A DNA stretch of 64,000 bases from Cyanobium sp. FGCU52 (GTDB lineage Bacteria; Cyanobacteriota; Cyanobacteriia; PCC-6307; Cyanobiaceae), in the NCBI GenBank assembly GCA_024958715.1, contig JANWUS010000041.1, positions 1 through 64,000 of the forward strand, given 5' to 3'. Under the pieces are notes generated by a model. It was given only the letters and a program-made list of their open reading frames with translations. It was not told the DNA's origin and made no database searches. Both the position numbers and the translations under genes were made by a program. Below, in pieces: positions 7,801 to 14,143 of the stretch (positions are counted from its first letter, which is position 1; every line of letters begins with the position of its first letter).

Positions 7801-8087
7801 CCAGTCCCGCCAGCGTCAGCCTCACCCACTCGGAAGGTCCACGGTGACCGCACCTTGGAGGAAACCGCCCCGGCCCCATAGAGCGTGCGCACCACCACCC
7901 CCGGGATCACGTTGGCCCGTATCAGCCGCGGGATCTCGCTCTGCTGCGCCACCGCATCGCCCGGCAGTCGGGCCGGGGCGGGGGCCGCAGCGGCGGGCGG
8001 TGTGGCGGCTGCGGCAGCCAGGGGAGGGGCGGGCGCGAGCAGCAGGGCCGCCATCAGGGCCCCGAAGGTCGCTCGGGTGCGTGCCAT
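7731..8087 (-). CDS. Possible small exported protein, hypothetical
   Basis: A 118-codon frame starts with a good signal peptide (MARTRATFGALMAALLLAP, then Ala/Pro-rich), followed by a conserved-looking stretch (QQSEIPRLIRANVIPGVVV and RTLYGAGAVSSKV). It fills an otherwise empty interval and is divergent from the GNAT gene. Against it: the last ~70 bases lie antisense inside the 3' end of the GGDEF-EAL gene and the C-terminal residues look like random read-through. No family recognised. Confidence 0.42.
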   Translation of the reverse strand: MARTRATFGALMAALLLAPAPPLAAAAATPPAAAAPAPARLPGDAVAQQSEIPRLIRANVIPGVVVRTLYGAGAVSSKVRSPWTFRVGEADAGGTGHIGSRARSQGSKASAGIGLARP

Positions 8088-8197
8088 GCCCTCGCTCGCC
8101 GGTGGCCCGAACCCTAGGCAGGGTCTCCTGACGCGGCCGCCGGGTCTCGCCCCATGCGGGGTGGCGGGGCCCGATGCTGGCTTCAGGGCCCGTTGCC

Positions 8198-9085
8198 ATG
8201 ACTCCCCCCTTCACGATCCGCCCGCTCAGCGCGGCCGACATCCCCGTGGTCACGGCCTGGGCCCGTGCCGAGGGCTTCGTGCCCGGCAGCGGCGACCTGG
8301 CCATCTACCGCCACACCGATGCCCAGGGCCTGTGGGTGGGCTGTCTCGACGGCGAGCCGATCGGCTGCATCGCCGGCGTGCGCTACGACCCCAGCTACGG
8401 CTTCATCGGCCTGTTCCTGGTGCGGCCCGACCAGCGCGGCCGCGGCTACGGGCTGCAGCTCTGGCGCCAGGCCCTCGAGCACCTGCGCGACGTGCGCTGC
8501 ATCGGCATCGAGGCGGCTCCCGATCGGATCGAGGATTACGCCGGCTGGGGCTTCCGCCCAGCCGCGCCCACCCGCCGCTGGCGCCGGCGAGGCGACGGCC
8601 ACACCACGATCGCGCCACCCCCACCCCCATCGGCCATGCCCTGGCGGCTGGAGCCGCTGGAGGCGGTGCCCGAGGCGGTGGTGCAGGCCTACGACGCCCG
8701 CCACGAGGCCACGCCCCGGCCCCACTTCCTCGGCGACTGGCTGCACCATCCCGCCGGCACGGTGCGGCTGCTGCTGGATGGCGACGGCCGCTGCCGCGGC
8801 TTCGGCCGCATCCGCCCCTGCCTGCTGCCGGTGGGCCGGGGCTGGCGGGTGGGCCCGCTGATCGCCGACACGCCGCCCCTGGCCGATGCGCTGCTGGCGG
8901 CGCTGCTGGCGGCCCACCCCGGCGTGGTGCTGATCGATGCCCCTGCGGCCAATCCCCATGCGGCACCGCTGCTGGCGGAGCGGGGATTCACCGCGGTGGG
9001 GGAGACCCTGCGCATGTACCGCGGTCCGGCGCCCCGGCTGCCGCTGGACGAGATCTACGGCCTGGCCTGCCTCGAGCTGGGCTGA
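8198..9085 (+). CDS. GNAT family N-acetyltransferase with two GNAT-like halves
   Basis: The N-terminal half begins FTIRPLSAADIPVV and has the acetyl-CoA binding motif VRPDQRGRGYG, followed by EAAPDRIEDYAGWGF; this is a standard GNAT domain. The C-terminal half (~140-295) resembles the second, acetyl-CoA-less GNAT repeat of the YitH/HolE-like group (LAERGFTAVGETLRMYRG near the end). The acceptor substrate is unknown. The ATG at 8198 begins MTPPFTIRPL directly before the domain; an ATG at 8174 would add eight residues. Confidence 0.85.
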   Translation: MTPPFTIRPLSAADIPVVTAWARAEGFVPGSGDLAIYRHTDAQGLWVGCLDGEPIGCIAGVRYDPSYGFIGLFLVRPDQRGRGYGLQLWRQALEHLRDVRCIGIEAAPDRIEDYAGWGFRPAAPTRRWRRRGDGHTTIAPPPPPSAMPWRLEPLEAVPEAVVQAYDARHEATPRPHFLGDWLHHPAGTVRLLLDGDGRCRGFGRIRPCLLPVGRGWRVGPLIADTPPLADALLAALLAAHPGVVLIDAPAANPHAAPLLAERGFTAVGETLRMYRGPAPRLPLDEIYGLACLELG

Positions 9086-9126
9086 GACAGCGGCCCTACG
9101 ATCCGGCTGATGCCGTTGCCGCCGTG

Positions 9127-10632
9127 ATGGCCGCCGAGCCGCTGCTGATCGCCAGGCCCGATCCCGGCCGGGGCGGGTCGGATGGGCTGCTGCTGCCGGC
9201 GATGGCCAACCGCCACCTGCTGATCGCCGGCGCCACCGGCACCGGCAAGACGGTGAGCGTGCAGCGGATCGTGGAGCAGTTCAGCCGCATCGGCGTGCCC
9301 AGCCTGCTGGCCGATGTGAAGGGCGATCTCTCCGGCCTGGCCCGCCCCGGCGGCTCGAATGCGGCGATCGAGGAGCGACGCGCGCTCCTCGGGCTGCCGG
9401 CGGGCGAGGAGGCGGCCTGTCCCGTGGAGTTCTGGGACGTGTTCGGCGAGCAGGGTCTGCCGCTGCGGGCCACGGTCTCCGAGCTGGGGCCGCTGCTGCT
9501 GGCCCGCCTGCTCAACCTCAACGACACCCAGGCCGGCGTGCTCAGCCTCGCCTTCCGCGTCGCCGACGACCAGGGCCTGCTGGTGCTGGATCTCAAGGAT
9601 CTTCGGGAGCTGGTGCGCCACGTGGGCGAGAACGCCCGCACCTACCAGGCCAGCTATGGCAACGTCTCGGCGGCGAGTGTGGGGGCGATCCAGCGGGCCC
9701 TGCTGGCGCTGGAGGATCAGCACGCCGATCTGTTCTTCGGCGAGCCGGCCCTCAACCCCGCCGACCTGCTCCAGACCGACGGCGAGGGCCGGGGGGTGGT
9801 GAACCTGCTGGCGGCGGATCGGCTCCACCGCTCCCCGAAGCTCTACGCCACGGTGCTGCTCTGGCTGCTCTCCTCGCTGTACGAGCAGCTGCCCGAGATC
9901 GGCGATGGCGAGAAGCCCCGGCTGCTGCTGGTGTTCGACGAGGCCCATCTTCTGTTCGACGGCGCCCCTGCCGTGCTGGTCGACACGATCGAGCAGGTGG
10001 TGCGTCTGATCCGCTCCAAGGGGGTGGCGCTGTTGTTCAGCACCCAGAACCCGATGGATCTGCCCGATCGGGTGCTCGCCCAGCTGGGCAACCGGGTGCA
10101 GCACGCCCTGCGGGCCTTCACGCCGGCGGATCAGAAGCGGGTGAAAGCCGCCGCCACCACCTTCCGCGGCCAGCCGGGCCTCGATGTGGAGCAGGCGATC
10201 GGCGAACTCGCCGTGGGCGAGGCGCTGGTGTCGTTCCTCGACCGTCAGGGGGTGCCCTGCCCGGTGGAGCGGGCCTGGGTGGTGCCTCCAGGCAGTCAGG
10301 TGGGCCCGATCGAGGCGGCGGATCGCCAGGTACGGATCACGGCGTCGCCCCTGCACGCCCACTACCGCACGCCGGAGGACCGGGAATCGGCCTACGAGCT
10401 GCTGCGCCGCCGGGCCGAGGCCACCACGGCAAGGGTGGCCGCCTCCAAGGAGCAGGAGCGGCTGGAGCGCGCCGAGGAGCGGGAGCGGGCCCAGGCCCGC
10501 AGGCGCGCCGAGCGGGAGAAGGAGCGCCTGCTGCTGTCGCTGGCCGGCGAGGCGGGCCAGCGCCTGGGGGGACGCACCGGCCGCAGCATCGCCCGCGGCC
10601 TGATGGGCGGCATCCTCAGCCGTGTTCCCTGA
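9127..10632 (+). CDS. HerA/YjgR-type helicase-like ATPase (DUF853)
   Basis: The 501-residue protein matches the YjgR/DUF853 pattern: Walker A AGATGTGKTVS (~34-44), LADVKGDLSGLA (~65-76), a Walker B-type LLLVFDEAHLLFDG and the RSKGVALLFSTQNPMDLPD motif, followed by a charged coiled-coil (~430-480) rich in R/E/Q. HerA-like ATPases are hexameric DNA motors; the role of the YjgR branch is unknown. A longer open frame begins at 7885, but it crosses the GNAT gene in another frame and lacks family sequence; the ATG at 9127 matches the usual N-terminus and length. Confidence 0.92.
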   Translation: MAAEPLLIARPDPGRGGSDGLLLPAMANRHLLIAGATGTGKTVSVQRIVEQFSRIGVPSLLADVKGDLSGLARPGGSNAAIEERRALLGLPAGEEAACPVEFWDVFGEQGLPLRATVSELGPLLLARLLNLNDTQAGVLSLAFRVADDQGLLVLDLKDLRELVRHVGENARTYQASYGNVSAASVGAIQRALLALEDQHADLFFGEPALNPADLLQTDGEGRGVVNLLAADRLHRSPKLYATVLLWLLSSLYEQLPEIGDGEKPRLLLVFDEAHLLFDGAPAVLVDTIEQVVRLIRSKGVALLFSTQNPMDLPDRVLAQLGNRVQHALRAFTPADQKRVKAAATTFRGQPGLDVEQAIGELAVGEALVSFLDRQGVPCPVERAWVVPPGSQVGPIEAADRQVRITASPLHAHYRTPEDRESAYELLRRRAEATTARVAASKEQERLERAEERERAQARRRAEREKERLLLSLAGEAGQRLGGRTGRSIARGLMGGILSRVP

Positions 10633-10668: not shown

Positions 10669-11316
10669 TCAGCCCCGCAGGGCTTCCAGGACGCCCTGGC
10701 CGTGCAGCTCCGCCAGCGTGTCGTAGCCGCCGATCCACTGCCCGTCGATGAACACCTGGGGCACGCCGCCGTGGCCGCTGAGCTGCTCCAGCTCCTGGCG
10801 TTCGGCCGCCCCATCCACCAGCCACACCTGATGGGCAATGCCGAGGGTGCGCAGCAGGCGCAGGGCCCGGGCCGACCAGGGGCAGCCGCTGGCCACGGCG
10901 ATCTCCACCCGCGGCTCCGCCGGCAGGGGGGTGGGGCGCTCGCGCGGCGCGGCCACCGCCGGGGCGGGATCGGCCGGGTCGGGGTCGGCCGAGGAGAGGA
11001 AGCCCACCAGCAGGTCGGCGCCCTTGAGCACCAGCGTGCCGGGCTCCAGGTGACCGCCCCACACCTGGCAGGCGCCGTCGGAGAGGCTCAGGTGCAGGTG
11101 CACCCCCTGGGGCGACAACGTGCCCTGCAGGGTGATGATCTCCAGATCCCCCTCCAGCACCGTGGGCCCGGCCTGTCCCGGGCACTGGAAGGCGGCACGG
11201 GAGAGGTTGCCCACCACGCCCAGCACGAAGCCCGAGGCGTTCCACTCGATCGCCAGCTGCTCGAGGCTGCGGCGCAGATCGCTGCCGGGGCCGAGCTTCA
11301 GCGCCTGGGATCGCAT
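10669..11316 (-). CDS. PPC (DUF296) domain - glutaredoxin fusion protein
   Basis: Two domains are visible in 215 residues. Residues ~1-115 (MRSQALKLGPGSDLRRSLE..., GVVGNLSRAAFQCPG, GDLEIITLQGTLSP, HLHLSLSDGACQVWGGHL) form a PPC/DUF296 domain, known from plant AT-hook proteins and stand-alone bacterial proteins. After an Ala/Pro-rich linker, residues ~140-215 form a glutaredoxin domain with ASGCPWSARALRLL (CPWS instead of CPYC, so a monothiol-type site) and GGVPQVFIDGQWIGGYD. Glutaredoxins reduce disulfides or glutathionylated proteins, or handle Fe-S clusters. The open frame continues upstream to 11487, but the conserved part starts at the ATG at 11314-11316. Confidence 0.88.
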   Translation of the reverse strand: MRSQALKLGPGSDLRRSLEQLAIEWNASGFVLGVVGNLSRAAFQCPGQAGPTVLEGDLEIITLQGTLSPQGVHLHLSLSDGACQVWGGHLEPGTLVLKGADLLVGFLSSADPDPADPAPAVAAPRERPTPLPAEPRVEIAVASGCPWSARALRLLRTLGIAHQVWLVDGAAERQELEQLSGHGGVPQVFIDGQWIGGYDTLAELHGQGVLEALRG

Positions 11317-11418: not shown

Positions 11419-11994
11419 ATGGCCGAAGCGTCGCCCACAGCCGTGCGCCAGACGCTGATCCGCTGCCTGCGGGAGGACCCGGCCCACCCGGACATCCCCG
11501 CATTGGTGGAGCAGCTGGAGCGGCAGCAGCCCGCCGATCTGGACGCCGACGGCTCCCTGCTGACGGGGGTGTGGGAGCTGCGCTGGAGCAGTGCGACCCA
11601 GCCCTGGCTGAAGCAGGCGCCCTGGCTGGAGAACCTGCAGGTGCTGGATCCCGGCCGCGGCCGCGGCATGAACCTGCTGCGCCTGAAGGGGCCTCTGGCC
11701 GCGGTGGCCGCGATCTCAGTGATCGCCGAGCTCGCGGTCACGGGTCGCCAGCGGGTGACGGTCACCTTCCGCCGGGGCGGCTGGATCGGCCCGCGCCTGG
11801 GGGGGCAGCGCCTGGAACTGCTGGCGACCGTGAAGCAGAGCTTCCCCGCCTGGCTCGACATCACGGTGCTCGACGCCGAGCTGCGCATCTGCCGTGGAAA
11901 TGCCGGAACCGTGTTCGCCCTGCTGCGGCGGCCTGATCTTGACCTTGAAGCCCTGCTGCCCGCCGAGGCCAGTTCCGGCTCCAGAAGCGAGTAA
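11419..11994 (+). CDS. PAP/fibrillin family (plastid-lipid-associated-like) protein
   Basis: The 191-residue product has the PAP/fibrillin pattern: LLTGVWELRWSS in the first half, a lipocalin-like middle (FRRGGWIGPRLGGQRLELLA) and a C-terminal LDITVLDAELRICRGNAGTVF motif. Members bind thylakoid or plastoglobule lipids in chloroplasts and are common in cyanobacteria; the exact role is unknown. It is divergent from the PPC-glutaredoxin gene and lies 87 bases upstream of ocp on the same strand. Confidence 0.88.
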   Translation: MAEASPTAVRQTLIRCLREDPAHPDIPALVEQLERQQPADLDADGSLLTGVWELRWSSATQPWLKQAPWLENLQVLDPGRGRGMNLLRLKGPLAAVAAISVIAELAVTGRQRVTVTFRRGGWIGPRLGGQRLELLATVKQSFPAWLDITVLDAELRICRGNAGTVFALLRRPDLDLEALLPAEASSGSRSE

Positions 11995-12081: not shown

Positions 12082-13035
12082 ATGTTCACGCTCGAAAAAG
12101 CCACCCAGATCTTCCCGGAAACCCTTGCGGCCGATGCCGTTCCGGCGATCACCGCCCGCTTCCGTCTGCTCAGCGCCGAGGACCAGCTGGCCCTGATCTG
12201 GTACGCCTACCTCGAGATGGGCACCACGATCACCATCGCCGCCCCCGGCGCCGCCCGCATGCAGTTCGCCGAGCCGGTGCTGCAGCAGATCAAGGCGATG
12301 AGCTTCCCGGAGCAGAGCCAGGTGATGTGCGACCTGGCCAACAGCACCGACACCCCGATCGGCCGCACCTACGCCAGCTGGTCCGTCAACATCAAGCTCG
12401 GCTTCTGGTATCAACTCGGTCAGTGGATGGCCGCCGGCATCGTCGCCCCGATCCCCGAGGGCTACCAGCTCTCCGCCAACGCCGCCGCCGTGCTGGCTTC
12501 GGTGAAGGGTGTGGAGCAGGGCCAGCAGATCACCCTGCTGCGCAACTTCGTGGTCGACATGGGCTACGACCCCGCCAAGGGTGAAGGTCAGCGGGTGATG
12601 GAACCGGTGGTGGCTCCCACCCCGGAGGAGCAGCGCAAGAAGGTGTTCATCGAGGGCGTGATCAACCCCACGATCAACAGCTACATGGATCTGCTCAACG
12701 CCAACGACTTCGACAACCTGATCAAGCTGTTCCTTCCCGACGGCGCCCTGCAGCCCCCCTTCCAGAAGCCGATCGTCGGCACCGATGCGATCCTTCGCTT
12801 CTTCCGCGAGGACTGCCAGAACCTGCGCCTGCTGCCTGAGCGCGGCTATGCCGAGCCCTCCGAGGGCGGCTTCACCCAGATCAAGGTGACCGGCAAGGTG
12901 CAGACCCCCTGGTTCGGTGCCGGCATCGGCATGAATGTGGCCTGGCGCTTCCTGCTGAACCCGGAGGGCAAGATCTACTTCGTGGCCATCGATCTGCTGG
13001 CCTCGCCCGCCGAACTGCTCAAGTTCGCCCGTTGA
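12082..13035 (+). CDS. ocp: Orange carotenoid-binding protein OCP
   Basis: A full-length 317-residue OCP. The helical N-terminal domain (~10-160) has IWYAYLEMGTTITIAAPGAA, NIKLGFWYQL and LLRNFVVDMGY; the linker (~165-190) leads to an NTF2-like C-terminal domain (~191-317). The residues that hydrogen-bond the keto-carotenoid are present: Y201 (SYMDLLNAND) and W288 (MNVAWRFLLNP). R154, in the region that contacts the phycobilisome and the C-terminal domain, is also present. OCP binds a ketocarotenoid, is photoactivated by blue-green light and quenches phycobilisome energy. It is followed directly by crtW and frp, whose products supply the ketocarotenoid and reverse quenching. Confidence 0.98.
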   Translation: MFTLEKATQIFPETLAADAVPAITARFRLLSAEDQLALIWYAYLEMGTTITIAAPGAARMQFAEPVLQQIKAMSFPEQSQVMCDLANSTDTPIGRTYASWSVNIKLGFWYQLGQWMAAGIVAPIPEGYQLSANAAAVLASVKGVEQGQQITLLRNFVVDMGYDPAKGEGQRVMEPVVAPTPEEQRKKVFIEGVINPTINSYMDLLNANDFDNLIKLFLPDGALQPPFQKPIVGTDAILRFFREDCQNLRLLPERGYAEPSEGGFTQIKVTGKVQTPWFGAGIGMNVAWRFLLNPEGKIYFVAIDLLASPAELLKFAR

Positions 13036-13820
13036 GCCCCACCACCCGCAGGGGGCTGCTTCTGGCGGCCCTCATCCTGCTGGGTTGGCTGGCCACCCTG
13101 GTGGTGCTGCTGTCCCACCCCCCCGGGCAGCTGCCTCCCGCCCTGCTGGTCCTGGCCGTTCTGGCCAGGACCTTTCTGCAGACCGGCCTGTTCATCGTCG
13201 GCCACGACGCCATGCACCGGGTGCTGGTGCCGGGCTCCCGGCGCTGGAACGACGGCCTCGGCCGGCTCGTGCTGCTGCTCTATGCCGCTCTGCCCTACGG
13301 CCGCTGCCGAGAGAAGCACCACCAGCACCATCACCGTCCCGGCAGCGCCGAGGATCCGGATTTTCACGCCCCTGGCCGCAGCTCCGTGCTGGCCTGGTAC
13401 GGCCGCTTCATGGGCGGTTATCTGCGACCCCTGCCGCTGACCCTGCTGGTGTCGGCCTGGGGGGGGCTGGCTCTGGCCACCTCCGTGGTGGCGGTGGCCC
13501 TGATCTGCGTGCTGCCGCTGCTGCTGAGTTCGCTGCAGCTGTTCCTGGTGGGCACCTACCTGCCCCACCGGGGCCAGGGCGAGGGCAACGACGCGTGCCA
13601 GGTCAGGGGAGAGGCCCAGGCGGAGGATGGACTTCGCTCGATCAGCCTCGCCCTGCCGGAGGGCCTGTCGCTGCTGGCCTGCTATCACTTCGGCTATCAC
13701 CGGGAGCATCACCGGGCCCCCCAGCTCGCCTGGCACCAGTTGCCGCAGGAGTACCGGCGGGGCCTGCTCCCCGCGCCGCTCGCGCTGACCACCGCTCACG
13801 CGGTAGCGTCCGGAACATGA
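13032..13820 (+). CDS. crtW: Beta-carotene ketolase CrtW
   Basis: The 262-residue membrane protein has the fatty-acid-desaturase-type histidine clusters of CrtW: HDAMH (58-62), HHQHHH (96-101) and HREHH (223-227), plus TYLPHRG at ~175-181 and about four hydrophobic segments. These histidines hold a di-iron centre. CrtW adds a keto group to the beta-ionone ring, giving echinenone or canthaxanthin, the pigments bound by OCP. The start is a TTG at 13032 overlapping the ocp stop by 4 bases (TTGA); no better in-frame start fits before the first hydrophobic helix. Confidence 0.95.
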   Translation: MSPTTRRGLLLAALILLGWLATLVVLLSHPPGQLPPALLVLAVLARTFLQTGLFIVGHDAMHRVLVPGSRRWNDGLGRLVLLLYAALPYGRCREKHHQHHHRPGSAEDPDFHAPGRSSVLAWYGRFMGGYLRPLPLTLLVSAWGGLALATSVVAVALICVLPLLLSSLQLFLVGTYLPHRGQGEGNDACQVRGEAQAEDGLRSISLALPEGLSLLACYHFGYHREHHRAPQLAWHQLPQEYRRGLLPAPLALTTAHAVASGT

Positions 13821-14143
13821 ACAGCATGGTTTCGGTCTGGACCGATCACGAACTGGCGGTCGCCCGCGAGGTCTTCGAGCGTGCCCACGGGCGGGCAGTT
13901 CAGGCCCTGATCGTGTCCGTGCAGCGCCACGCCGAGCAGCTGGATTCCGTGGATGCCCTCTGGCAGCTGCATGATTTTCTCAGCATCCAGCGCCACCGGA
14001 TCGAGGGCAATTTCGACTTCCGTCTCGAAGGCATCCTGTTCCTGTTCGCCGGCCTGGTGAAGGAGGGGCTGCTCGAACCCTCTGAACTGCAGGACCTCGA
14101 CGAGGAGAAGCGGGGCAAGATCATGGCCATGGCCCGGTTCTGA
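13817..14143 (+). CDS. frp: Fluorescence recovery protein FRP
   Basis: The 108-residue protein has the FRP pattern WTDHELAVAREVFERAHGRAV near the N-terminus and the conserved core LWQLHDFLSIQRHRIEGNFDFR (~48-69), which carries the Trp, His-Asp and Arg residues known to contact OCP, then LFLFAGLVKEGLL. FRP binds the OCP C-terminal domain and accelerates return to the orange, non-quenching form. The ATG overlaps the crtW stop by 4 bases (ATGA), so translation is probably coupled. A second ATG lies three codons downstream. Confidence 0.96.
   Translation: MNSMVSVWTDHELAVAREVFERAHGRAVQALIVSVQRHAEQLDSVDALWQLHDFLSIQRHRIEGNFDFRLEGILFLFAGLVKEGLLEPSELQDLDEEKRGKIMAMARF

Follow-up and report, generated by a model that had tools for sequence, protein, structure and literature searches.

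The window analysed here, a stretch of 64,000 nucleotides from Cyanobium sp. FGCU52, encodes a PPC (DUF296) domain and a glutaredoxin domain in one chain, and the PPC domain of this fusion is of a remodelled type: the histidine triad and Glu59 are kept, Cys45 and Cys83 are nearly always present, and the TTxE motif is mostly replaced. We describe it as remodelled because the two fusion-typical cysteines, together with Lys/Arg98 and Asp101, stand against the invariant TTxE of stand-alone PPC domains. The architecture itself is already known and has been in print since 2009, when DUF296-GRX was placed among the bacteria-specific glutaredoxin architectures (Alves et al. 2009, PMC2679010). The proteins described there share with the fusion a glutaredoxin of the CPYC class. 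In its passages on this architecture, that paper does not analyse the PPC half residue by residue; the lineage limit, the fusion-typical cysteines and the remodelled PPC site are added here. Neither the pattern of cysteines nor the remodelling of the PPC half was found in print in searches of the open-access literature.

The fusion frame begins with an ATG at 11316 and ends with a stop at 10669-10671, with no break between them in the window sequence, see Table 1. A 272-residue mechanical ORF covers the gene; its GTG start lies further upstream. Both halves are matched by Pfam, one by PCC (PF03479; E 9e-18, 65.1 bits, cut-off 25) and the other by Glutaredoxin (PF00462; E 1.4e-12, 48.1 bits, cut-off 22.9). 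The earlier note, made from the letters alone, had proposed a PPC domain joined to a glutaredoxin with a CPWS site in one frame, and the two Pfam matches in an uninterrupted frame of 215 residues bear this out. It had also named a frameshift, or two separate starts, as the observation that would speak against a fusion. Neither is seen: both domains lie in a single frame in the window and in the 124 distinct relatives examined, and this rules out the two-gene reading. That two genes were merged through a sequencing error or read-through therefore has a negligible probability; no support for it was found, although one relative has a frame that stops after the PPC half. This relative (L086, Synechococcus sp. 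AG-673-F03, 117 residues) is either truncated or wrongly assembled. Besides the fusion, the same genome contains two stand-alone PPC paralogues, giving three PPC matches, and there are eight glutaredoxin-domain matches, with the fusion counted among them.

Table 1. Position of the fusion gene, its parts and the adjacent gene in the window.
Feature	Coordinates	Strand	Remarks
PPC-glutaredoxin fusion gene	10669..11316	minus	215 residues and stop
PPC/PCC (DUF296) domain	11014..11307	minus	residues 4-101; Pfam, conservation, fold
End of last PPC strand, then tether	10909..11013	minus	residues 102-136; strand to 106 in the model
Glutaredoxin domain	10732..10908	minus	residues 137-195 of the Pfam match; CPWS 145-148, Pro186, GGYD 196-199
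PAP/fibrillin gene	11419..11994	plus	neighbour outside the system, divergent from the fusion gene

The structure model of the fusion protein has a mean pLDDT of 91.2 and a pTM of 0.57, and its last helix ends at residue 213. The pLDDT is under 50 at residues 112-114 and 122-130, both in the tether, and these low-confidence stretches together with the pTM mean that the model leaves the mutual placement of the two halves unfixed. Individually, the halves match known folds in the pdb (Foldseek) and pdb_via libraries. The PPC half aligns with 2p6y from Vibrio (Z 20.4, 1.3 A over 109 residues) and with 2nmu (Z 18.3) and 2hx0 (Z 18.2) from Salmonella, and the C-terminal half with Synechocystis glutaredoxin A (Z 14.6-14.7) and E. 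coli Grx3 (Z 14.2). The latter shows 46% identity to the glutaredoxin half in its Foldseek row and is the best sequence match too.

The residue comparisons are based on two sets of sequences. The 124 fusions are best matches plus picks across genera, i.e., a sample of known fusions, from which duplicates, partial or truncated sequences (L079, L083, L086), short ones (L102, L130, L179) and one without a glutaredoxin (L103) were left out; L132, which has a glutaredoxin with the site CTWS, is counted with the fusions. The 34 distinct stand-alone PPCs were picked from the best matches in the same family and in other members of the phylum, leaving out L122, L281 (partial) and L282, a broken fusion remnant which has Cys83.

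In the glutaredoxin half the first active-site cysteine, Cys145, is present in 124/124 fusions, as are Pro186 and Gly196. The second cysteine occurs in only 26 of the 124 and is absent in the window protein. The site is CPWS in 60 sequences, CPFS in 26, CPWC in 24 and CPYS in 10, with CPYC, CPFC, CTWS and CAWS once each. As the second cysteine is dispensable, the chemistry common to all fusions would be the monothiol one. Glutaredoxins with the first cysteine alone carry out a glutathione-dependent monothiol reaction, and the conservation pattern points to the same reaction here. The domain is nearest to glutaredoxin 3 in NCBIfam, at scores below the equivalog cut-offs (NF007923, 54.3 versus 129 bits; TIGR02181, 49.4 versus 90 bits). 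The Grx4-type monothiol glutaredoxins have a CGFS site, which the fusion lacks, and the score for their class, TIGR00365, is 31.1 versus a cut-off of 117.1 bits. E. coli glutaredoxin 3 and Synechocystis glutaredoxin A share the fold, 33-46% identity over the C-terminal domain and a CPxx site with the fusion; however, the fusion is mostly monothiol (98/124 relatives) and is joined by a tether to a PPC domain. Measured between residues 108 and 135, this linker varies from 7 to 65 residues among the 124 fusions, with a median of 18, and is rich in Ala and Pro. A glutaredoxin is likewise fused to a thiol partner domain in the hybrid Prx5-glutaredoxin of Haemophilus (1nm3), but there the partner is a peroxiredoxin and not a PPC domain.

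Structurally, the PPC half is that of the stand-alone bacterial PPCs. The Salmonella and Vibrio proteins and the two paralogues in the same genome have the same fold (Z 18.2-20.4) and the HxH and GGH histidines, while they lack the glutaredoxin. His73, His75 and His89, as well as Glu59, are found in 124/124 fusions and in 34/34 stand-alone PPCs. The cysteines behave differently. Cys83 is present in 122/124 fusions and in 0/34 stand-alone PPCs, all of which, cyanobacterial like the fusions, have a glycine at this position. Cys45 is found in 124/124 fusions by alignment, at most 123 when it is considered that the cysteine of L101 sits in an insertion and is placed by a gap, and in one stand-alone PPC (L275). 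Of the alignment columns that contain a residue of the window protein, just four (45, 83, 145 and 148) have a cysteine in more than one tenth of the fusions, the share at column 148 being 21%. The TTxE motif shows the opposite pattern. T98, T99 and E101 are kept in 34/34 stand-alone PPCs, while the window protein has K-G-A-D at 98-101 and the fusions have Lys or Arg at 98 in 120/124 and Asp at 101 in 112/124, with Glu in 8. Cys83 stands six residues from His89. By strand order, the loops of the model that contain Cys45 and Cys83 could lie together at one end of the beta-meander.

Two fusions deviate from the cysteine pattern. L129 has Cys45 but Gly at position 83, and L101 (from genome G054) lacks Cys83 and a true Cys45 and keeps T98 and E101, while still having a glutaredoxin. 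These exceptions show that the Cys45/Cys83 pair is not strictly required. In a tree of the PPC part, one branch (95/78) separates 82 fusions from 17 stand-alone PPCs, with long-branch warnings, and L101 adjoins the stand-alones. It is possible but unproven that L101 represents an early state without the cysteines; it could also be a secondary loss.

The histidines suggest a metal site. The zinc of acetolactate decarboxylase is bound by an HxH motif together with one more histidine; by analogy, His73, His75 and His89 of the fusion probably bind a metal. Foldseek places PPC proteins of bacteria and archaea closest to the PPC half, including AF0104, which is titled metal-containing; acetolactate decarboxylase (6j92) appears further down as a weak match (E 1.3e-4, TM 0.32).

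A redox role is the most probable interpretation of the fusion protein. We suggest that it is a two-domain thiol protein in which the N-terminal PPC domain would hold the three-histidine site, probably for a metal, and the two cysteines, while the C-terminal glutaredoxin, on its flexible linker, would use Cys145 and glutathione to reduce the PPC cysteines in cis, by deglutathionylation or by resolving a disulfide. This would tie the PPC domain, in its state or its activity, to the glutathione pool of the cell. The domain could then act enzymatically, bind a ligand as an oligomer, or serve in regulation. This suggestion comes from the combination of a tethered monothiol glutaredoxin and two fusion-typical PPC cysteines, one of them close in sequence to His89. 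That the glutaredoxin acts on the PPC thiols in cis, keeping or switching the PPC site, has in our judgement about an even chance of being correct. The two domains in one chain, the residue conservation, the replaced TTxE and the variable-length linker are observed directly; metal binding, redox cycling of Cys45 and Cys83, the cis reaction and a trimer are inferred. Several observations point against the mechanism: L129 and L101 lack the full pair, the stand-alone L275 has Cys45, eight fusions have Glu101, the surrounding genes point to no substrate, and some genomes of the family do without the gene. The conserved cysteines could also serve structure or metal binding only. More tentatively, and we consider this rather doubtful, the stand-alone metal-site domain could have been rebuilt after the fusion event in picocyanobacteria into a thiol-metal active or sensing site, made of Cys45, Cys83 and His73/75/89, that works only with the tethered monothiol glutaredoxin.

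To our knowledge there is no agreed function for bacterial PPC/DUF296 domains. If the reading as a rebuilt thiol-metal site is true, the fusion would be a PPC protein driven by glutathione and retained even in streamlined genomes of Prochlorococcus size, and would give a biochemical role to a bacterial PPC domain. The joining of a PPC domain to a reductant, with fusion-typical cysteines, provides a direct handle on which thiol is reduced and what changes as a result.

Other readings assign the cysteines and histidines differently. The PPC domain could be a metalloenzyme resembling acetolactate decarboxylase, whose turnover oxidises its own cysteines, with the fused glutaredoxin as the reductant, as in the known peroxiredoxin-glutaredoxin pattern, which is seen in 1nm3 and also described in PMC2679010. 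This is unlikely, though it should be taken seriously: the invariance of the histidine triad and Glu59 with or without the fusion, and the Foldseek matches to AF0104 and 6j92, are what such an enzyme would lead one to expect. However, no substrate and no operon partner is seen, the decarboxylase match is the weak one given above, and TTxE is mostly lost in the fusion, so that chemistry inferred from the relatives may not hold. The same cysteines and histidines, conserved together in the fusions, could instead be ligands for a soft metal (copper, zinc, mercury or arsenic); the glutaredoxin would then load or unload metal bound to glutathione. We regard this as improbable; ten scanned neighbour proteins include no known metal-resistance family.

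A redox-controlled DNA-binding regulator has a similarly low probability. Depositors label PPC structures as putative DNA-binding, and the earlier note had loosely made the connection by way of the plant proteins. Plant AHL proteins have the PPC domain in common with the fusion but carry AT-hooks instead of a glutaredoxin. The core of these AT-hooks is RGRP, which is absent from the 215-residue sequence of the fusion protein, and no separate DNA-binding domain is found in it by Pfam at E 0.1 or better. The three histidines are better read as the probable metal site of the fold than as a zinc finger. With the closest folds being bacterial and archaeal, the plant-type link is not supported, and DNA binding by the fusion protein, as suggested in the part of PMC2679010 concerned with this architecture, is without direct support in this analysis.

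The earlier note had called the fusion unusual. This is partly correct: the full-length matches seen fall in one family only, but within it the fusion is widespread, and the architecture has long been published. Named carriers are Cyanobium, Synechococcus, Prochlorococcus and Aphanothece saxicola. A scan of genome contigs, which reaches close relatives only, finds at least 47 loci, of which 46 are picocyanobacterial (some partial, and one ending after the PPC half); the remaining locus of those listed is a glutaredoxin-only match in Sphingomonas. One carrier record (L051) is titled as a Bifidobacterium breve MAG and is probably a mislabelled bin. In a draw at the order level, 265/299 genomes give a match of E 1e-18 or better, which in a few cases (e.g. 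G023) may come from a PPC-only paralogue.

The lineage limit rests on a sample within the phylum. In a draw of 386 genomes searched with a profile of 80 fusions, 58 genomes have one full-length match each at E 1e-69 or better, all from the family of the window. Below these, the first match listed belongs to a broken second copy in G056 (1.6e-32), which has an internal stop, and every other row listed is confined to one of the two halves, PPC or glutaredoxin. A single-sequence search of a draw of the same size lists four out-of-family matches, all to the PPC half by their range. Thus no fusion outside the family is among the matches listed in the 386-genome draws. The broken copy (L282, G056:C1:211400-212400) has an intact counterpart in the same genome. 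Viral contigs contain 205 stretches that encode a relative; the best 80 all match from query residue 101 on, and none of these is a fusion. Within the family, a Pfam search of 101 genomes finds a PPC match of any kind in 56 of the 64 near-complete ones; the other eight show that the fusion gene is dispensable. It is nevertheless kept in genomes of 1.6-1.7 Mb.

The genomic context differs between lineages, and it therefore names no partner; an operon or guilt-by-association argument was rejected for this reason, with no substrate named either. We compared 46 named loci, with flanks of up to 6 kb and many shorter. The PAP/fibrillin gene also adjoins the fusion in the nearest named relative (L042). 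In WH7803 the neighbours are a DUF6737 protein, an RHH_5 protein and a ligand-gated-channel-like protein, many marine loci differ from the window, and freshwater loci have other neighbours again. A conserved protein (L059:5315-5974 and relatives), with no Pfam match in the one member scanned, adjoins the fusion or lies close to it, upstream or downstream, in 21 of the 46 loci.

In the window, a HerA-like frame (7885-10632, plus strand, HerA_C at residues 436-910) is convergent with the fusion gene. Its front overlaps a long frame at 8174-9085, and its true start is likely further downstream. Beside the fusion, 12082-14143 on the plus strand encodes in a row an orange carotenoid protein, in which Carot_N and NTF2 are matched, a CrtW-like ketolase, whose 203 bits fall short of the equivalog cut-off, and the domain of a fluorescence recovery protein. 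This carotenoid cluster was dropped as a context clue, as the first two genes are matched in L042 only among the 46 named loci. The fluorescence recovery protein domain occupies residues 252-350 of the frame 13085-14143.
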